The position numbers and the translations under genes were made by a program. From assembly GCF_040448685.1 (NCBI RefSeq), contig NZ_CP159290.1:1054001-1118000 (forward strand): a DNA stretch of 64,000 nucleotides. The letters run 5' to 3'. Of the stretch, positions 14,096 to 22,917 are shown piece after piece. Under the pieces are notes generated by a model. That model made no database searches and was not told the DNA's origin. It saw only the letters and a list, made by a program, of their open reading frames with translations. Within the stretch, counting starts at the first letter, position 1; the number at the start of each line of letters is the position of its first letter. The DNA comes from Cellulosimicrobium sp. ES-005. Its GTDB lineage: Bacteria; Actinomycetota; Actinomycetes; Actinomycetales; Cellulomonadaceae.

Positions 14096-14124
14096 TTGTC
14101 AGGTTAGCCTTCACTAAATAAGGT
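14096..14124 (+). promoter_or_regulatory. Promoter of hmuT overlapped by an IdeR/DtxR iron box
   Basis: TTGTCA (14096-14101), a 17-base spacer and TAAGGT (14119-14124) form a good promoter. The spacer is almost filled by TCAGGTTAGCCTTCACTAA (14099-14117), which matches the 19-bp DtxR/IdeR consensus TTAGGTTAGCCTAACCTAA at 15 positions. Iron-loaded IdeR bound here would block RNA polymerase, so the haem genes should be induced by iron starvation. Site identity is by comparison with the known consensus. Confidence 0.8.
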
Positions 14125-14196: not shown

Positions 14197-15357
14197 ATGC
14201 CTCAGGACCCTCCCCGTCCGACCCGCACCGCCCCGTCCTCACGCCCCGCCCGTCGCAGCGCCCGCCCCGTCCCGGTGGTCGTCCTCGGTGCGGTGCTCGC
14301 CGTCCTGACCGCCTGCTCCCTGACCGGCGCGGCCGGCAACGGTGCCGCCGCCGGGGCCGTCGACACCACGCCGCTCACCGAGCTCGACGCTCTGGACGAC
14401 CCCCGGTCGTACGTGGGGGAGTCGACCGCGGTCCTCGCGGACGCTGCGGTCGATCCCGTCGCGGACGACCCGCAGCCGACGCTGCCCGCCACGGTGACCG
14501 ACACGCAGGGCACCGAGGTCACCGTCACCGACACGAGCCGCATCCTCGCGCTCGACCTCTACGGCTCCACGTCGCGCGTCGTGTTCGAGCTCGGCCTGGG
14601 GGACAACGTCGTCGGGCGCGACCTGTCGTCAGGGTTCGAGGAGATCGCCGACGAGCCGCTCGTCACGACGAACGGGCACGAGCTGAGCGGCGAGGCGATC
14701 CTCGAGCTCGCCCCGACGGTGATCATCACCGACACGACGCTCGGGCCGTGGGACGTGGTCCTCCAGATGCGCGACGCGGGGATCCCCGTCGTCGTCGTGG
14801 ACTCGCACCGGAACCTGGACAACGTCGGCACGCTGATTCAGCAGGTCGCCGACGCGCTGGGCGTCCCCGAGGAGGGCGCGGTGCTCGCGGAGCGCACGCA
14901 GGCCGAGATCGACGCGAAGCTCACGGAGATCGCGGCGCTCGTCCCGCAGGACCCGGCGGACCGCCTGCGCATCGCGTTCCTCTACGTGCGTGGTCAGGCC
15001 GGGGTGTACTACCTGTTCGGCTCCGGCTCCGGCGCGGACTCGCTCGTCAGCGCCCTGGGCGGGGTCGACGTCGCGACCGAGATCGGCTGGGACGGGATGC
15101 GACCGGTCAACGACGAGGGCCTCGTCGCGATGCAGCCGGACCTCCTCCTCATGATGACGAAGGGCCTCGAGTCCGTCGACGGCGTGGACGGCCTGCTCGA
15201 GCAGCTCCCGGCGATCGCCCAGACGCCCGCGGGCCAGCACCGACGCATCGTCGACATGGCGGACACCGAGATCCTCAGCTACGGCCCGAACACCGCGGGC
15301 GTGCTCGACGCCCTCGCCCGCGCGATCTACGCCCCGGCGCCCGGGGGCGCCTCGTGA
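14197..15357 (+). CDS. hmuT: Haem ABC transporter substrate-binding lipoprotein HmuT
   Basis: Surface lipoprotein of 386 residues that receives haem from cell-wall proteins and delivers it to HmuUV. A twin basic N-terminus and hydrophobic stretch end in the lipobox LTAC (Cys40). An acidic linker precedes the two-lobe TroA-type fold. NGHELSGEAILELAPTVI contains His161, and FLYVRGQAG contains a Tyr near 263; corynebacterial HmuT uses one His and one Tyr for haem, so these are plausible ligands. It is first in the operon, directly behind the iron box, and overlaps hmuU by 4 bases. Confidence 0.93.
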   Translation: MPQDPPRPTRTAPSSRPARRSARPVPVVVLGAVLAVLTACSLTGAAGNGAAAGAVDTTPLTELDALDDPRSYVGESTAVLADAAVDPVADDPQPTLPATVTDTQGTEVTVTDTSRILALDLYGSTSRVVFELGLGDNVVGRDLSSGFEEIADEPLVTTNGHELSGEAILELAPTVIITDTTLGPWDVVLQMRDAGIPVVVVDSHRNLDNVGTLIQQVADALGVPEEGAVLAERTQAEIDAKLTEIAALVPQDPADRLRIAFLYVRGQAGVYYLFGSGSGADSLVSALGGVDVATEIGWDGMRPVNDEGLVAMQPDLLLMMTKGLESVDGVDGLLEQLPAIAQTPAGQHRRIVDMADTEILSYGPNTAGVLDALARAIYAPAPGGAS

Positions 15358-16499
15358 CGACGACGCACGTCCCGCGGGACGCGACCACCGCCGCCGACAC
15401 CACCACCGATACGGCCGTCGCGACGCTGCGGGACCTCGACGGACCGGTCGCGCTCCCGCCGGCCCGGCCCGCGCGCGTGACCGCGCTCTTCGTCGCCCTC
15501 GCCCTCCTGCTCGTCGTCCTCGGGCTGGTCTCCGCCGGGATCGGGCAGCTCCACGTGCCGCCGTTCGAGGTGCTCGGATCGGTCCTGCACCGGCTCGGGC
15601 TCGACGTCGGGCCGATGCCCTCGCACCCCAACGGTGACGCGGCGCTGTGGACCATCCGGTTCCCGCGTGTCGTCATGGCGATGACGGTGGGCGCGGCGCT
15701 CGCGACCGCGGGCGCCGTCATGCAGGGCGTGTTCGGCAACCCGCTCGCCGAGCCGGGGGTCGTGGGGGTCTCGGCGGGGGCCGCCGTCGCCGCGTGCTCG
15801 ACGATCGTCTTCGGCATCACCGTGCTCGGCCCGTGGACCATCGCGGTCGCCGCGTTCGTCGGCGGGCTGCTCACGACGCTCCTCGTCTACGCGCTCGCGC
15901 GGTCCCAGGGCCGCACCGAGGTCGTCACGCTCGTCCTCACGGGCGTCGCGGTCAACGCCGTGTGCGGCGCGGGCCTGGCTTTCCTCACGTTCCTCGGCGA
16001 CACGCAGGCGCGCGAGCAGATCGTCTTCTGGCAGCTCGGCAGCCTCAACGGCACCCGGTGGCCGTACGTCGCGATCGTCCTGCCGCTCGTGCTCGTCGGG
16101 ATCGGCGTGGCCGTCGTGCTCGCGCGCCGGCTCGACCTGCTCTCGCTCGGCGAGCGCGCCGCGCGCCACCTCGGGGTCGACGTCGAGCGGCTGCGGATCG
16201 TGTGCATCGTCGCGGTCGCGCTGCTCACGGGCGCGGCGGTCGCGTTCTGCGGGATCATCGCGTTCGTCGGGCTCGTCGTGCCGCACCTCGTGCGCATGGT
16301 CGTGGGGCCGGGGCACCGCGTGCTGGTCCCCGCGAGCGCGCTCGGCGGCGCGGTGCTGCTCACCGGCGCCGACCTGGTCGCCCGCACCGCGGTGCCGTAC
16401 GCGGACCTGCCGCTCGGCATGCTCACCGCGCTCGTCGGCGGGCCGTTCTTCTTCTGGCTCCTGCGCCGCACGCGCCGTACGGCGGGGGGCTGGGCATGA
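15354..16499 (+). CDS. hmuU: Haem ABC transporter permease HmuU
   Basis: FecCD/BtuC-type permease of 381 residues, with a cytoplasmic N-terminus of about 40 residues and roughly ten hydrophobic helices. Family motifs include WTIRFPRVVMAMTVGAALA, GNPLAEPGVVGVSAGAA and the ATPase-contact region CGIIAFVGLVVPHLVRM. It forms the membrane channel for haem together with HmuV. GTG at 15354 overlaps the hmuT stop, and its own stop overlaps the hmuV ATG, so the three genes are tightly coupled. Confidence 0.93.
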   Translation: MTTTHVPRDATTAADTTTDTAVATLRDLDGPVALPPARPARVTALFVALALLLVVLGLVSAGIGQLHVPPFEVLGSVLHRLGLDVGPMPSHPNGDAALWTIRFPRVVMAMTVGAALATAGAVMQGVFGNPLAEPGVVGVSAGAAVAACSTIVFGITVLGPWTIAVAAFVGGLLTTLLVYALARSQGRTEVVTLVLTGVAVNAVCGAGLAFLTFLGDTQAREQIVFWQLGSLNGTRWPYVAIVLPLVLVGIGVAVVLARRLDLLSLGERAARHLGVDVERLRIVCIVAVALLTGAAVAFCGIIAFVGLVVPHLVRMVVGPGHRVLVPASALGGAVLLTGADLVARTAVPYADLPLGMLTALVGGPFFFWLLRRTRRTAGGWA

Positions 16500-17317
16500 C
16501 CGCGACCGTGAACCCGCCCGTGCTGTCCGCCCGGGGCGTCGGCGTGCGGATCGAGGGCGCGACGATCCTCGCGGACGTCGACCTCGACGCGCTCGCGGGC
16601 GAGGTGCTCGTGCTCGTCGGACCCAACGGCGCGGGAAAGTCGACCCTGCTGGGCGTCCTCGCGGGCGACACGGCGCCGACGAGCGGGACCGTCGCGTGGG
16701 AGGGCGAGCCCCTCGCCGCGGTCGGCGTCGCCGAGCTCGCCCGACGTCGGGCGGTGCTCCTGCAGGAGACGCGCCTCAGCTTCCCGTTCCGCGTCGTCGA
16801 CGTCGTCCGCATGGGTCGCGCGCCGTGGCGGGGCACGGCGCGCGAGGAGCACGACGACGAGGCCGTGGCGCGCGCGCACGTCACCGCCGACGTCCTGCAC
16901 CTCGCCGCGCGCCGGTTCCCGAGCCTGTCGGGAGGGGAGAAGGCCCGCGCGTCGTTCGCGCGCGTCCTCGCCCAGGAGCCCCGGCTCCTGCTCCTCGACG
17001 AGCCGACCGCCGCCCTCGACATCCGCCACCAGGAGTACGTCCTCGCCCAGGCGCGCGAGCGTGCCGGGGTGGGCGACGCCGTCGTGGTCGTGCTGCACGA
17101 CCTCTCGCTCGCCGCCGCGTGGGCGGACCGCGTCGTCGTGCTCGACGGCGGTCGGGTCGCCGGCGTGGGGACGCCCGACGAGGTGCTCACGGACGACCTC
17201 CTGACCCGCGTCTACCGCCATCCCGTGCGCACGCTGCGCCACCCCGAGACCGGCGAGCTGCTCGTCCTCCCGGCCCGCACCGCCACCCTGCCGACCCCGG
17301 AGCCGTCCCTCCCATGA
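16496..17317 (+). CDS. hmuV: Haem ABC transporter ATP-binding protein HmuV
   Basis: ATPase of 273 residues that powers haem import. It has Walker A GPNGAGKST, a Q-loop (LLQETRLSF), the signature LSGGEKARASFARVL, Walker B RLLLLDEPTAALD, and the switch His in VVVVLHDLSLAAAW. The C-terminus carries VYRHPVRTLRHPETGE, a feature seen in haem-type HmuV proteins. ATG at 16496 overlaps the hmuU stop, and its stop overlaps the start of the next secreted protein by 4 bases. Confidence 0.95.
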   Translation: MTATVNPPVLSARGVGVRIEGATILADVDLDALAGEVLVLVGPNGAGKSTLLGVLAGDTAPTSGTVAWEGEPLAAVGVAELARRRAVLLQETRLSFPFRVVDVVRMGRAPWRGTAREEHDDEAVARAHVTADVLHLAARRFPSLSGGEKARASFARVLAQEPRLLLLDEPTAALDIRHQEYVLAQARERAGVGDAVVVVLHDLSLAAAWADRVVVLDGGRVAGVGTPDEVLTDDLLTRVYRHPVRTLRHPETGELLVLPARTATLPTPEPSLP

Positions 17318-18699
17318 CCACCTCGACGATCCCGACAGCACACCCTCCCGTCCGCGCCCCGCGGCGGCCCGTCGCGCGCATCGCGCTCGCCGCGCTGCTC
17401 GCCCTCGTCGTGACCACGTCCGCGACCGTCGTCGGCACGGTCGTCGGTGCCGCTCCCGCGCACGCGGCGGCGCGCGTGACCGTGACGAACGACCAGGGCC
17501 GCGCGGAGGCTGATGCGACGTACGCGACGACGCTCACGCTCAGCGGCTCCGGGTTCCAGTCGATCCAGGGGGCGTTCGGCGGCGTGTACGTGTTCTTCGG
17601 CTGGGTGTCCGACCCCGCGGGCGGGTCGTGGGCACCGAGCCGCGGCGGCAGCACCGGCGCGGACTACCGGTACGTGCCCGACTCGGAGCAGGCCGACAAC
17701 CAGGGCTTCCAGAAGTTCGTCGCCTTCCCGGGCTCGGACACGGAGTACGCCGCGAACGGCGGCGTGGTCGCCGCGGACGGGACGTGGTCGACGCGGCTCG
17801 TGGTCCCGGGCCCGACGTTCCAGGCGCTCGACCGCGGCGGGAACGCCGTGACCGTCGACTGCCGCGAGGTGCAGTGCGGGGTCATCACGATCGGCGCGCA
17901 CGGCGTGCCGAACGCCAACAACGAGACGTTCACGCCGGTCGCGTTCACCGACGCCCAGGCGGGAGGCGGCACCGCCGCCGGCACGACGCCGGGCGCAGCG
18001 GACCAGGGCACGGTGGCGCAGGGCGAGACCGGCGATGCCACGCCACCGCCCGCACCCGCGGCCGCGGCCGGCACGGCGACGATCGGCGTCGACCAGGCGA
18101 CCGCCGTCGCGGGCCGCGCGCTGAGCTTCGTGGCGCAGGGCTTCCAGCCGGGGGAGCAGGTCGTGGGGGTCCTGGACGACGGCGTGCTCGCCATCGGGCC
18201 GCTCACGGCCGGGAACCAGGGCGAGGTCGCGGGCCTGCTCGAGCTGCCCGCGGACCTACGGGTCGGGACGCACGTCCTCCGCCTGACGGGTGCCGGGTCG
18301 GGCCTCGCGCCCGAGGTCGAGATCACGGTCCGCAAGGACCCCGCCGCGGTGGCCGCGGAGGAGGCCGCGGCCGAGGCCGCCGCGAGCGCCGGGCAGGGGT
18401 ACTCGCCGGCCGAGATCGCCGTCGGCGTGGCGGCGCTCGTCCTGCTCCTCGTGCTCGTCTCGTCGTTCGTCTCCGCACGTCGGCGGCGCCGCGCGGCGCG
18501 CCCGGGCGCGGCAGCGTCCGGCGAGGCCGAGGCCGCGCAGGAGGCGACGGCGGACGTCGGACCCGGGGGCGGGGCGGTGGCACCACCGGTCCCGGCCTTC
18601 CACGGCGGCCCGCGCGTCGACGCTCGCGACGACGCGCCGACCCAGAGCCTGCCGCCCGTGGTCGTCCCGCAGGGTGAGCCCGTGGGACGGCACGCATGA
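17314..18699 (+). CDS. Membrane-anchored secreted protein of the haem island
   Basis: A 461-residue exported protein of unknown precise role, coupled to hmuV. After a signal peptide ending near AHAA comes a beta-rich domain that starts VTVTNDQG and ends with a Cys pair (DCREVQCGVITIGAHG). The phrase VITIGAHG...ETFTPV recalls the fold ending seen in neocarzinostatin-like or Ig-like domains. A second Ig-like domain (about residues 248-345, ATIGVDQATAVAGRALSF onward) is followed by an EAAAEAAA stretch, one membrane helix (VAALVLLLVLVSSFVSA) and a basic, then acidic cytoplasmic tail. It lacks a clear HtaA domain. Position suggests a cell-surface accessory in haem capture or relay; this is inference. 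Confidence 0.8.
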   Translation: MTTSTIPTAHPPVRAPRRPVARIALAALLALVVTTSATVVGTVVGAAPAHAAARVTVTNDQGRAEADATYATTLTLSGSGFQSIQGAFGGVYVFFGWVSDPAGGSWAPSRGGSTGADYRYVPDSEQADNQGFQKFVAFPGSDTEYAANGGVVAADGTWSTRLVVPGPTFQALDRGGNAVTVDCREVQCGVITIGAHGVPNANNETFTPVAFTDAQAGGGTAAGTTPGAADQGTVAQGETGDATPPPAPAAAAGTATIGVDQATAVAGRALSFVAQGFQPGEQVVGVLDDGVLAIGPLTAGNQGEVAGLLELPADLRVGTHVLRLTGAGSGLAPEVEITVRKDPAAVAAEEAAAEAAASAGQGYSPAEIAVGVAALVLLLVLVSSFVSARRRRRAARPGAAASGEAEAAQEATADVGPGGGAVAPPVPAFHGGPRVDARDDAPTQSLPPVVVPQGEPVGRHA

Positions 18700-20081
18700 G
18701 CGCCGGGACGCGCGCGCGGCGCTGGGTCGCCCGGGTCGCGGCGCTCGCGGGGATCGGGCTGGTGGCGCTCGCGGGCACGGTCGGGCCCGGGGCGGCCGCC
18801 GCGACCGCGACGGGTGGGAGCCTCGGTACGGGGCTGGGCATCGACGACGACGGCCGACCGGACTCGGCGGGGCTGCCGGTGACGGTGACGGTCCCGACGC
18901 TGGACGCCGCCGGCGGGCCGTTCACCGTGTCCGACGCCCAGCTCCGGTGGGGCCTCAACCACGAGGCGGGCAGCGCCGCGTTCTTCGGTGGCTGCAACTT
19001 CCTCATGGCGGGCGTGCCCGGGAGAGACGGCGACACGCACGGCGGCACGGTCTGGACCGAGGCCCACGGCTTCTACCGCGCGAGCGAGGGCGACGTCCGC
19101 GTCGTGCGCACCGACGCGTCCGGCGTGGAGCGCACCGCGAGCTTCGCGACGCGGTGCCAGGCGCCCGACGGGCAGCAGGTGTCGCTCGCGAACAACCTCA
19201 GCACGGGCGGGCAGGTCGTCGTCGACGGCGGCGTCGGGACCGTGGACCCCGAGGCCGGGACCGCGACGATCCGGTGGAAGGGCACCTTCACGACCGTCTT
19301 CTACGGCGGCCTGACCTACTGGTGGGCCAGCGATCCCGTGCTCACCGTCCGGGCCGACGGCACGGGCGAGCTCACCGCGACCGCGGGCGGGTTCGGCACG
19401 TCCATGGAGGACATGACCCGGTGGGAGCGGCTGCCCGCGACGCAGGTCGTGCTCGCGGACCTCGAGAAGGTCCTGCTGGGCGACCGCGCCGGCTTCCGCG
19501 CCGTGCCGCGCTACCTCGGCGTCACGACGGCCGCGACCGGCCTCACCGTGCGGCAGGCGGCACGGACGAGCGACAACGCCGCCCACTGGGGGGCCTTCCC
19601 CACGAGCTTCGTGCAGTTCCAGGTGCGGACCGGGCAGGCCGCGTACTGGTACACGTCGGGCGGCCAGCGCGACTGGGCGAAGGTCGCGGCGCCGCTGTAC
19701 GTGAGCTACGACGCCGACGCGCCCGTCCCGCAGGAGCCGGGCGGCGGGGCGACGCCGCCGGTGGGGACGGTGTCCAACCCCGTGCTCACGCCCCCCGGCG
19801 TCCGCACCGGGCCCGGCGCGGGGACCGGGAGCGGCTCGTCCGTCCCCCGGGCGCCGTCGTCGCTCGGACCGCCGACGGACACGGCCGCGCCCGTCGCGTT
19901 CCTCGCGAGCCCCGCCGCCACGATCGGCGCAACGCGCACCGGGCTCGTGCCTGAGCTCGCGGACGCCCTGCGCGACCCGTCGCAACGGCTCGCGCTCATG
20001 ACCACCGGGCTGCTGCTCGCCTCCGCGGGCACTGTCGTCGGGTTCCGGAAGGGCTGGCTCGTCCTGCCCTTCCGGGGATAG
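18696..20081 (+). CDS. HtaA-like haem-binding surface protein
   Basis: A 461-residue exported protein with a signal peptide, one HtaA-like domain and a C-terminal membrane helix (LALMTTGLLLASAGTVVGF) with a very short tail. The domain begins LRWGLNHEAGSAAFFGG, close to the W-G-(V/L)-N/K start of corynebacterial HtaA domains. It ends with YYGG/YWWASDPVLTVRADGT-type strands (actual: FYGGLTYWWASDP). HtaA proteins bind haem or haemoglobin through Tyr and His and pass haem to HmuT. I cannot assign the ligands without an alignment. Cys residues in GGCNF and TRCQA may form a disulfide. The start overlaps the previous stop by 4 bases. Confidence 0.82.
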   Translation: MSAGTRARRWVARVAALAGIGLVALAGTVGPGAAAATATGGSLGTGLGIDDDGRPDSAGLPVTVTVPTLDAAGGPFTVSDAQLRWGLNHEAGSAAFFGGCNFLMAGVPGRDGDTHGGTVWTEAHGFYRASEGDVRVVRTDASGVERTASFATRCQAPDGQQVSLANNLSTGGQVVVDGGVGTVDPEAGTATIRWKGTFTTVFYGGLTYWWASDPVLTVRADGTGELTATAGGFGTSMEDMTRWERLPATQVVLADLEKVLLGDRAGFRAVPRYLGVTTAATGLTVRQAARTSDNAAHWGAFPTSFVQFQVRTGQAAYWYTSGGQRDWAKVAAPLYVSYDADAPVPQEPGGGATPPVGTVSNPVLTPPGVRTGPGAGTGSGSSVPRAPSSLGPPTDTAAPVAFLASPAATIGATRTGLVPELADALRDPSQRLALMTTGLLLASAGTVVGFRKGWLVLPFRG

Positions 20082-20085
20082 AGGT

Positions 20086-20135
20086 CCGCCCCGCCGTCGG
20101 ACCCGGGCTGGCACCCGGACCCGACGGCAGGGCGG
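20086..20135 (+). terminator. Long hairpin between the two HtaA-like genes
   Basis: Outer arms CCGCCC and GGGCGG, then GCCGTCGG and CCGACGGC, then CCGGG and CCCGG, with small mismatches, form a 50-base hairpin starting 5 bases after the stop codon. It may terminate part of the transcripts or stabilise the upstream mRNA, giving different levels of the later genes. Confidence 0.6.
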
Positions 20136-20245: not shown

Positions 20246-21628
20246 ATGCACACGCACAGACATCGGACGCGACCCACGCACCGGCTGGTCGCCGGCGCCG
20301 CCGTCGCCGCGATCGGCCTCGGCACGGTCTGGGTCGCCGCGCCCGCCCAGGCGGCCGAGCAGACCGTCGAGGGGGCCTCCTTCGTGTGGGGCCTCAACGG
20401 CTACGCGCAGAAGGGCATCTTCGGCCCCTGGTCGTACAAGAACCTCACGGGCGACGCCGCCCAGCTCGTCGGGAGCGTCTCCGGCGGGACGCAGTCCGAG
20501 TACGTCGTCGACCCGGTCCCGGCCACGTCGTTCCCGGCCGAGCACGCGGGCAAGACCCCCAACGCGGTCAAGTTCACCGAGGGCTCCGGCACGTACGACG
20601 CGGACACGCACGAGCTCGCTCTCGCGTGGTCCGGCAGCTACACGGTCAACGCCTACCCGGCCCAGTTCGGCGCTCCCGACGAGATCTACGCGAACCCGCA
20701 GCTCGTCGTCGAGGCGGACGGCTCCGGCTCGTTCAGCGCGGAGTTCACGCTCGGCGCAGGCATCGACATGTCCGGCAACCCCGTCGACGAGCAGAGCTAC
20801 GGACGCCTCGACCTCGTGACGTTCTCCCCGGGCTCGGTCGATGTCGTCGACGCCGACACGGTCCGCATCACGCCCGACTTCCAGGGCATCGAGGTCGACC
20901 CCGCCGACAGCTCGCCGCAGACGCGCAACTGCGTCGCGTCGGGCACCGCGACGGGCTGGTGGGGCTCGTGGGCGCCCGAGTTCGTCAACACGCTGCCGGG
21001 CAGCGTCCGCCCGCACTTCTACTCGACCGGCTGCGGCGGCATGCAGGACCTCAAGCCGGCCCTGCCGATCGACGTCACCTACGCGGTCGACGCCGGCCCC
21101 GTCGACCCGGGTGGTCCGGGTGAGCCCGAGGAGCCCGGCGAGGGCGACGTGCCGATCGACGTGACCGTGCCCGAGGTCGAGGAGCCCGAGGAGCCGGGCG
21201 AGTTCGTCTGGACGATCGAGGGCGGCACCCCGGCCGTGAGCCTCGGCACCGCGACCGTGCGCGACGGCTCGTTCGTCGCGAGCGGCGTGCTGCCGAAGGT
21301 GACGATCACCGACACGCGCGCGGGCCAGCCTGCGTGGGCGATCAACGGGTCCGTGAGCGACTTCGCGTCGGGCAGCAAGACGTTCTCCGGCAAGTACCTC
21401 GGCTGGGGCCCGGCGCTCGCCGGGGACAACACGGTGGGCGCGGGCAACGGCCGCGTCGTCGTCGCGGGCGAGGGCGAGGGCCTCAAGGCGTCCTCCACGC
21501 TCGCGTCGGCTCCTGCCGGCCACCCGAAGGGCTCGGTCCAGGCCGAGGCCGCGATCGACCTGCGCCTGCCGCTCGACACGGGGGCCGGGGACTACACCGG
21601 CATCCTGACCCTCACCGCGGTGGGCTGA
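20246..21628 (+). CDS. Secreted HtaA-like protein with a C-terminal WxL-like domain
   Basis: A 460-residue secreted protein with a signal peptide (cleavage near AQAA, about residue 37) and no membrane anchor or sortase motif. Residues about 40-280 form an HtaA-like domain, starting FVWGLNGYAQKGIF and containing NAYPAQFGAPDEIYANPQL. Cys229 and Cys263 could pair. An acidic Pro/Glu linker (about 283-318) follows. The last 140 residues contain TITDTRAGQPAWAINGSVSDF and end GAGDYTGILTLTAVG, which recalls WxL wall-binding domains (W-x-L then YT..LTWTL near the end), although the second Trp is replaced. The next gene encodes a DUF916-like protein, the usual WxL partner. A good ribosome site (AGAGGA) precedes ATG 20246. 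Confidence 0.8.
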   Translation: MHTHRHRTRPTHRLVAGAAVAAIGLGTVWVAAPAQAAEQTVEGASFVWGLNGYAQKGIFGPWSYKNLTGDAAQLVGSVSGGTQSEYVVDPVPATSFPAEHAGKTPNAVKFTEGSGTYDADTHELALAWSGSYTVNAYPAQFGAPDEIYANPQLVVEADGSGSFSAEFTLGAGIDMSGNPVDEQSYGRLDLVTFSPGSVDVVDADTVRITPDFQGIEVDPADSSPQTRNCVASGTATGWWGSWAPEFVNTLPGSVRPHFYSTGCGGMQDLKPALPIDVTYAVDAGPVDPGGPGEPEEPGEGDVPIDVTVPEVEEPEEPGEFVWTIEGGTPAVSLGTATVRDGSFVASGVLPKVTITDTRAGQPAWAINGSVSDFASGSKTFSGKYLGWGPALAGDNTVGAGNGRVVVAGEGEGLKASSTLASAPAGHPKGSVQAEAAIDLRLPLDTGAGDYTGILTLTAVG

Positions 21629-21636
21629 CCGGACCG

Positions 21637-22917
21637 ATGAACCGAGACGCCGCCGCCCCCGTCCGTACGCACCGCCCCGCACGGGGCGCGGCGGCGCTCG
21701 TCGGTGCGCTCGCCGCCCTGCTCGCGCTCGTCCCTGCCGGGGCGGCGCGGGCGGGGGGCGAGGTGCCCACGGTGCCCGTGGCGCCCGTGGTCTCCGCCCT
21801 CACGGGGGACACCACGGGCGACCTGAGCTGGGGTCTGCTGCCCGCCGACAACGACCACGGCACCGACCGGCCCAACTTCTCCTACGCCGTCGGACGCGGA
21901 GACACGATCTCCGACACCGTCGTCCTGACCAACCACTCCGCGCAGCGCCTCGAGCTGCGCACCTATGCCGCCGACGCGTTCACGACGACGTCAGGGCAGC
22001 TCGACCTGCTCCCCGCCGGGGAGACGTCCACGGACCTCGGGTCGTGGATCGCCCTGGGGGCCGGCACGGTCACGGTCGACCCTGGCCAGTCCCTCGACGT
22101 CCCGTTCACGATCACCGTGCCCGACGACGCCTCGCCCGGCGACCACTCCGCCGGGGTCATCACCTCCCTCGTCCAGCAGGCGTCCGCGTCCACCGTCGCG
22201 CTCGACCGGCGTCTGGCGCTGCGCGTGCACGCGCGCGTCGAGGGTGCCCTGGCCCCGACGGTCGAGGTGAGCGACGTGGAGGTGGTCCACCACGACGTCG
22301 CGAACCCTTTCGGCACGTCGTCAGCGACCGTGCGGTACACCCTGACCAACACGGGGAACGCGCGCGTCGTGCCGGCCGAGTCCGTCACCGTGACCGGGCC
22401 GTTCGGCTGGGCGACCATCACCGGGGGTGACGGTGAGCTGCCGGAGCTGCTCCCCGGCTCGGCGCTCGAGCGCGAGGTCGCCGTGACCGGGGTGCGACCC
22501 CTGGGCCGCGCCGACGCCTCGGTGGCCGTCACCGCCACAGCCGTCGGGATCGGCGGGGGAGCGACGGCGAGCGACGACGGCGGCGCGCAGACCTGGGCGG
22601 TCCCGTGGGCCGCTCTCGCGCTCGTCAGTCTGGTGCTGCTCGTCGCGCTGCGCGGCCCGGCGCTCGTCGCCGCGCTCCGTCGTCGTCGGGCCGCGAGGGC
22701 CGCCGCGGGAGGCGGCCGGGCGGCCGGCCCCGCGACCTCGACCTCGGGCGCGGTCCCGGAGAGCTCGGCGGCGGACCCCGCCCCGGAGGCGGGTGCCGCC
22801 GCGCCGGACCCGTCCGCGCTGACCACCGACCAGCTCGAGGAAGCCCTGGAACGCGCCCGCGCCGAGGGCCGCGCGCAGACGCTCGCGGAGCGCGGCGGCC
22901 GCGAACCGGAGGCCTGA
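21637..22917 (+). CDS. DUF916/WxL-interacting-like membrane protein
   Basis: A 426-residue exported protein. A signal peptide is followed by two beta-sandwich regions. The first (about 55-190) has LSWGLLPADN, RGDTISDTVVLTNHS, YAADAFTTTSGQLDLL and PGDHSAGVITSL, matching the pattern of the DUF916 (WxL-interacting, peptidoglycan-binding) domain known from Firmicutes. A second Ig-like domain leads to a membrane helix (PWAALALVSLVLLVALRG), a basic stop-transfer segment and a cytoplasmic tail ending in a helical DQLEEALERARAEG segment. The ATG follows the HtaA-WxL-like gene by 8 bases, so the pair is cotranscribed. It probably anchors that secreted protein at the wall. Assignment rests on motif shape. 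Confidence 0.78.
   Translation: MNRDAAAPVRTHRPARGAAALVGALAALLALVPAGAARAGGEVPTVPVAPVVSALTGDTTGDLSWGLLPADNDHGTDRPNFSYAVGRGDTISDTVVLTNHSAQRLELRTYAADAFTTTSGQLDLLPAGETSTDLGSWIALGAGTVTVDPGQSLDVPFTITVPDDASPGDHSAGVITSLVQQASASTVALDRRLALRVHARVEGALAPTVEVSDVEVVHHDVANPFGTSSATVRYTLTNTGNARVVPAESVTVTGPFGWATITGGDGELPELLPGSALEREVAVTGVRPLGRADASVAVTATAVGIGGGATASDDGGAQTWAVPWAALALVSLVLLVALRGPALVAALRRRRAARAAAGGGRAAGPATSTSGAVPESSAADPAPEAGAAAPDPSALTTDQLEEALERARAEGRAQTLAERGGREPEA

Follow-up and report, generated by a model that had tools for sequence, protein, structure and literature searches.

Two adjacent genes in the 64 kb stretch of the Cellulosimicrobium sp. ES-005 genome that we analysed (the window) encode P0001, a secreted protein in which a haem-receptor-like N-terminal domain is joined to a divergent WxL domain, and P0002, a protein with a DUF916 domain. 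The pair appears to belong to a largely unrecognised actinobacterial surface-display system, and we consider it probable that here it provides the envelope-docking part of a haem importer under iron repression. All of the evidence is computational, and it establishes the homologies, the predicted folds, the gene order, a match to an iron box and the pairing of the two families. In the mechanism that we propose, the N-terminal domain of P0001, which is HbpA/HtaA-like, would capture a haemoprotein or haem outside the cell, and the C-terminal divergent WxL domain would retain the protein in the cell envelope without a sortase. P0002 would be its dedicated DUF916/WxLIP partner, tethered via a membrane helix, and would bind the WxL domain and so hold P0001, probably by lending a β-strand. 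Haem may next be handed to a type II protein (18696-20081), itself membrane-tethered, and from there to the importer, made up of binding protein, permease and HmuV ATPase. The wall or partner binding, the ligand, the iron control and this hand-over are steps that we infer.

P0001 has a signal-peptide-like start, its hydropathy over 19 residues exceeds 1.2 nowhere else, and a scan for an LPXTG-type sortase motif found none; hydropathy and the motif scan thus agree with a first-pass annotation, made from the DNA sequence, which had described a secreted protein with neither membrane helix nor sortase signal. The W-x-I and final YTGILTLT that it had likened to WxL domains are both there, the former as W-A-I in motif 1 (D356-T-R358-x5-W364-A-I, with I in place of L) and the latter in the C-terminal end YTGILTLTAVG. 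The AlphaFold2 model of the WxL domain (residues 318-460) has a mean predicted local distance difference test score of 94. A search with 141 residues of the domain against 149 genomes (own genome, genus, family and order) gave 105 places in 58 genomes, the own genome included; these genomes are related to each other, so counts taken from them are not independent events. Sequence was fetched for 100 of the 105 places, the other five being left out, and at all 100 the domain alignment stops 0-6 residues short of the stop codon. Such an extreme C-terminal position in a secreted protein is a WxL criterion, and P0001 shows it as well.

A 75% identity filter of the fetched places left 65 representatives (A1), among which PF13731 (WxL) is the commonest family, matching 25 at E 1 or better with a best value of 6.7e-6. 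The Asp and Arg that lie 8 and 6 residues ahead of the first WxL Trp (excerpt of PMC9772566) are invariant across the 65 rows and present in P0001, and over the 100 places motif 1 has W in 95, of which 92 carry L, I or V two residues on, and F in five. Of the 100 domains, 98 share a near-invariant LG[WVL]xP motif, whose Trp might replace in space the Trp of the second W-x-L motif, which is lost here (see below). As a Firmicutes reference we used a 1.14 Mb plasmid of Enterococcus raffinosus with eight PF13731 domains. On this plasmid the A1 profile made two matches only, with E 6.6e-5 and 0.057, each of them at a WxL site. By hhalign, A1 was aligned with the eight domains at a probability of 88.7% (E 2.6e-6, 140 columns), a figure that comes from just 8 Firmicutes sequences. 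In controls, none of 20 column shuffles exceeded 0.2%, the reversed alignment reached 0.3%, and alignments of another β-sandwich, DUF916, scored 6.2% and 0.2%. Over 396 Actinomycetota genomes, PF13731 itself found 23 places in 17 genomes at E 0.01 (above cut-off in 8 genomes) and A1 found 54 places in 30 genomes at E 0.001, recovering 17 of the 23.

The P0002 start codon (21637) lies 8 bases past the P0001 stop, and the earlier identification of this gene as DUF916 was confirmed: PF06030 scores 33.2 bits (cut-off 27.3), and a profile of 92 actinobacterial partners, searched against the open reading frames of two E. raffinosus regions, found three DUF916 proteins (E 7e-10 to 1e-4), to which hhalign aligned it at 93.6%, or 95.1% for the first domain alone. 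Besides its signal peptide P0002 has one membrane helix, from residue 320 (hydropathy 2.34), and is among the 88 of 92 partner sequences that have one by the hydropathy rule; an LPGSA at residue 272 is internal and not where a sortase signal sits. Over the same 149 genomes PF06030 occurs at 105 places in 60 genomes (E 0.01), and 56 genomes hold both families. Co-occurrence had been put forward as a check in the first-pass annotation, and the pair stands together at 89 of the 105 domain places, with PF06030 on the same strand and starting less than 2 kb downstream; 89 of the 105 PF06030 places likewise have the domain upstream. This pairing is far above chance. Sixteen domain places lack PF06030 in the 2 kb downstream, and ten of these were re-examined with profiles: four gain a partner, one (L055) ends with its contig and five have no partner in the fetched stretch. 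Re-examination of the 16 PF06030 places without an upstream domain gave a domain at seven and a reversed order at one; the rest comprise two at contig ends, two unmatched by the partner profile and four alone within about 3 kb.

The earlier suggestion of a haem-uptake setting is supported by an HmuV equivalog, an iron box, a conserved gene order and haem oxygenase near some islands (Table 1). Specifically, the Hmu importer set (HmuV-type ATPase, FecCD permease and PF01497 protein) is complete, the haem-specific cut-off being passed by the ATPase alone, and 17 of the 18 islands, among them that of the window, keep the order permease, ATPase, GVYVxFG protein, type II protein, WxL fusion and DUF916 gene; the exception (L077) begins at a contig end. 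The island is present in Cellulosimicrobium cellulans PW (query stretch 100% identical), C. arenosum, Oerskovia flava and two Luteimicrobium, and in part in two Bifidobacteriaceae contigs from metagenome-assembled genomes; in Microbacterium rhizomatis the domain and partner were found and none of the other island genes searched for. The iron box has 3 mismatches to a working DtxR/IdeR consensus, and it is the sole match in the 64 kb, with none in 100 shuffles. In all five named islands that reach the binding-protein gene, one of which is nearly identical to the window, a box with 3-4 mismatches stands before that gene at a distance of about 100 bp or less; as background, the 82 other fetched loci, 729 kb in all, contain a single match. 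In 6 of the 18 islands haem oxygenase is found 8 kb or less from the fusion. Box-like matches at L204:10496-10514 and L205:12319-12337 stand, by arithmetic, 86 and 87 bases before the haem-oxygenase matches there.

Table 1. Features of the haem-import island and the WxL/DUF916 pair (window coordinates).
Feature	Position	Strand	Evidence or remark
DtxR/IdeR-like iron box	14099..14117	+	79 bp 5' of binding-protein gene
Substrate-binding lipoprotein of ATP-binding cassette (ABC) importer, HmuT-like by position	14197..15357	+	PF01497 110 bits
FecCD-family permease, HmuU-like by position	15354..16499	+	PF01032 317 bits
Haem ABC transporter ATPase HmuV	16496..17317	+	NF010068 equivalog 296.3 bits, cut-off 261
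GVYVxFG-domain secreted protein, C-terminal membrane helix from residue 368	17314..18699	+	Synteny; no Pfam match
HbpA/HtaA-like (type II) membrane-tethered protein	18696..20081	+	Aligns with P0001 N-terminal domain (alignment A6)
P0001: signal peptide, HbpA-like CR domain, acidic linker, divergent WxL-superfamily domain	20246..21628	+	460 aa
P0001 HbpA/HtaA-like domain	20354..21103	+	Residues 37-286, ~250 residues
P0001 divergent WxL domain	21197..21628	+	Residues 318-460
P0002: PF06030 (DUF916/WxLIP peptidoglycan-binding domain) and membrane helix	21637..22917	+	426 aa

The type II protein has a C-terminal helix from residue 432 by hydropathy. The domain of the GVYVxFG protein may be an unrecognised haem-relay domain, and the motif also occurs within 13 of 100 WxL-like proteins of relatives, upstream of the WxL-like domain. 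An inverted repeat at 20094-20127, which is imperfect, 14 bp long, GC-rich and without a T run, is visible by eye after the type II gene and before P0001, and it may separate two transcription units; a promoter and terminator scan gave no promoter-like site and one terminator-like site, near chance level.

The CR fold of the P0001 N-terminal domain is backed by structure comparison and is closest to that of the haemoglobin receptor HbpA, to which the sequence match is weak (14% identity). PF04213 (HtaA) scores 20 bits, below its cut-off of 24, and 62.4 bits in the orthologous fusion L041. The description of P0001 as HtaA-like therefore holds for the CR fold, and fails in that the family model falls below cut-off and the nearest fold is HbpA. 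Haem capture as first proposed is not supported by the sequence of P0001, since the axial haem Tyr motif (the S-x3-Y helix) is missing where the protein reads WGLNGYAQKGIF, though this classical HtaA ligand motif is carried by 10 of the 18 orthologous fusions; a haem-ligating HtaA was accordingly rejected. Elsewhere in the own genome, a separate 1680-residue frame (C1:3592620-3596663) has three HtaA domains over the PF04213 cut-off, and thus the genome also holds CR domains of the Pfam HtaA type. In one relative (L068:6816-9024) a separate frame with a P0001-type capture domain (60% identity) lies downstream of a DUF916 gene and adjoins a classical HtaA-WxL fusion.

Besides this missing Tyr motif, a number of results speak against a WxL-type pair in a haem importer. 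PF13731 has no match to P0001 at E 10, nor at its genomic place; instead of the second motif Y-x3-[LIV]-T-W-x-L, P0001 has Y-TGI-L-T-L-T-A, and the Trp of this motif was found at none of the 100 fetched places; and A1 misses six of the eight E. raffinosus WxL domains, the small set from which the hhalign probability derives. No PF11797 (DUF3324/HBD) was found in P0002 at E 10, and the second domain of the partners aligned with Firmicutes HBD at 0.5%, level with shuffles (at the sequence level only). In the phylum sample the pairing is weaker, with PF06030 less than 2 kb downstream at 33 of 54 A1 places (37 within 5 kb) and A1 upstream of 31 of 60 PF06030 places, and in the haem cluster no small WxL gene was found, the WxL-like gene being the only one. 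For the importer, no NCBIfam model exceeds its cut-off for the binding protein, which is a putative HmuT by position only, with a generic PF01497 match, and the best models for the permease are BtuC, below cut-off. Although 16 of the 18 island genomes have haem oxygenase, so do 90 of all 149, and the window's own genome has it at a distance of 2.4 Mb.

Because profile homology is kept and the second W-x-L Trp is lost, the C-terminal domain of P0001 is, as judged from its sequence, a WxL homologue minus one defining motif, a variant and not a canonical member. The WxL-like label of the first-pass annotation thus stands on the profile homology (A1 and hhalign) and fails on PF13731 and the second motif, and its DUF916 partner of WxL type stands as to PF06030 and the membrane helix and not as to DUF3324/HBD; P0002 as a full WxLIP was rejected, HBD being absent from both the PF11797 and hhalign searches. 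Further searches were uninformative. PF13731 run directly on the own genome gave two other sub-threshold places (13.3 and 9.8 bits), NCBIfam models gave no match of note to P0001 or P0002, phmmer against the PDB gave one chance-level match for P0001 and none for P0002, A1 against PDB sequences gave nothing under 0.06 and no WxL chain, and fold searches of solved structures with the C-terminal domain returned no entry named WxL among the matches listed.

How the pair would dock leaves most room for another view. It is possible, if not what we favour, that docking is purely protein-protein, the WxL domain having no peptidoglycan binding and being held by P0002 alone via its membrane helix. Firmicutes WxL domains, however, bind the wall (excerpt of PMC5817068, citing Brinster 2007), and the Trp motifs are described as largely structural (excerpt of PMC9772566), so that their change need not abolish binding. 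That the island is not for haem and the pair serves another cargo, such as a siderophore, cobalamin or a non-haem protein, is unlikely; the BtuC models, the generic PF01497 match and the lack of the haem-ligating Tyr in P0001 would be compatible with it, but the HmuV equivalog is above cut-off, the folds are those of HbpA and HtaA, and the iron box, the nearby haem oxygenase and the classical HtaA in 10 of 18 fusions all point to haem. We also judge it improbable that P0001 is a freely secreted haemophore whose C-terminal domain is just a folding or export module stabilised by P0002 en route: P0001 has no covalent anchor, and part of C. diphtheriae HtaA and ChtA is secreted (excerpt of PMC12494546), but Firmicutes WxL homologues are wall-associated (excerpt of PMC5817068) and P0002, which usually accompanies the domain, has a membrane helix. 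Very improbable, and already disfavoured, is a different β-sandwich with convergent motifs (a GH123 N-terminal or pilin-like domain), for which Foldseek puts GH123 chains first (E 5.9e-5) and some representatives match DUF4402 (11 of 65, best 0.0092) or PF22680 (9 of 65, best 0.036), these being the next families after PF13731, since PF13731 is commonest with the best E, 17 of its 23 places in the phylum sample are also detected by A1, DUF916 follows at 89 of 105 places, and the full-length hhalign result with its shuffle and other-sandwich controls led us to reject convergence.

The preferred reading, a WxL-type docking pair, extends beyond haem. We collected 59 full-length proteins ending in the domain (A5), 57 of them from the 65 A1 representatives together with L079 and L094; the eight left out had starts that looked doubtful by a crude hydropathy rule, and at least one that was kept (L070) looks truncated, and therefore fused domains may be undercounted. 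Three of the 59 match PF13731 at E 0.001, and at this threshold Pfam gave HtaA in 8. The N-terminal domain of purple acid phosphatase was detected in 5, metallophosphoesterase likewise in 5 and alkaline phosphatase in 4, while phosphodiesterases, glycosidases, peptidases and others turned up singly. At L088-L091, L059, L060 and L094 (assigned by eye) the proteins capped by the WxL-like domain are purple acid phosphatases, alkaline phosphatases and phosphodiesterases, and the phosphatase cargo suggests a surface phosphate-scavenging set. The domain looks like a general display module, not specific to haem, with the haem receptor as one cargo. Metallophosphatases and DUF916 have been listed among the neighbours of the metal-binding domain family Ang-2 (excerpt of PMC12537917), and thus the phosphatase link had in part already been glimpsed. 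The own genome also has a second pair (L116, C1:4642060-4643182), in which a domain-only secreted protein of 204 residues (C1:4642060-4642557) is followed by its own PF06030 gene, and therefore the system, like that of Firmicutes, has both a small and a large form. More tentatively, these cases could reflect a general sortase-independent display system of actinobacteria in which an incomplete Ig-like (pilin/TasA-like) WxL domain on a secreted cargo would be completed by a strand of the membrane-tethered DUF916 partner, a donor-strand lock resembling chaperone-pilin pairs, and would display nutrient scavengers (haemoprotein receptors, purple-acid and alkaline phosphatases, phosphodiesterases and glycosidases), each usually with its own co-encoded partner.

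The closest known systems are the WxL/WxLIP (Csc) clusters of Lactobacillales and Bacillales (PF13731 with PF06030-PF11797), which share with the pair the D-x-R-x5-W-x-[LIV] motif in a C-terminal domain, large (fused) and small (domain-only) forms, and a nearby DUF916 protein with a membrane helix. They differ in that the second W-x-L is replaced here, most members here are missed by PF13731, HBD was not detected here, small and large forms occur together there whereas here one WxL-like gene stands beside its partner, and the cargo here includes haem receptors and phosphatases. With the Corynebacterium hmu and HtaA-HtaB-ChtA system the island shares CR-fold proteins, an Hmu-type importer, a DtxR-type box and haem oxygenase in the genome. 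The Corynebacterium proteins, however, are described as tethered by a C-terminal membrane helix (excerpt of PMC12494546), whereas the receptor of this island has a WxL-type domain at its end and a dedicated partner; the likeness to C. diphtheriae HbpA is known here from the fold and a weak sequence match, and no WxL domain of HbpA is mentioned in the available portions of PMC12494546 and PMC12445094.

WxL proteins have been placed almost wholly in Lactobacillales and Bacillales and tied to host binding and virulence (excerpt of PMC10599100), and over 91% of 938 were assigned to Firmicutes, the rest being unnamed in the available portion of PMC9772566. The former survey used PF13731 and related models at E below 1e-10 (excerpt of PMC10599100), and the best PF13731 value among our 65 representatives is weaker than this threshold. 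Actinobacterial entries may already stand in the supplementary tables of such surveys. In the open PMC literature we found nothing joining WxL with HtaA or Cellulomonas, and with Cellulosimicrobium only one paper, unrelated by title. Among relatives of the window the divergent WxL/DUF916 pair is common, with the domain in 58 of the 149 genomes, and it extends to other parts of the phylum, where the profile detects the domain in 30 of 396. With haem receptors and phosphatases as its cargo, the pair suggests that one role of the WxL platform is nutrient capture, would add for haem receptors a mode of anchoring beyond the membrane helix, and would provide non-lactic systems in which the docking of WxL and DUF916 proteins may be tested.

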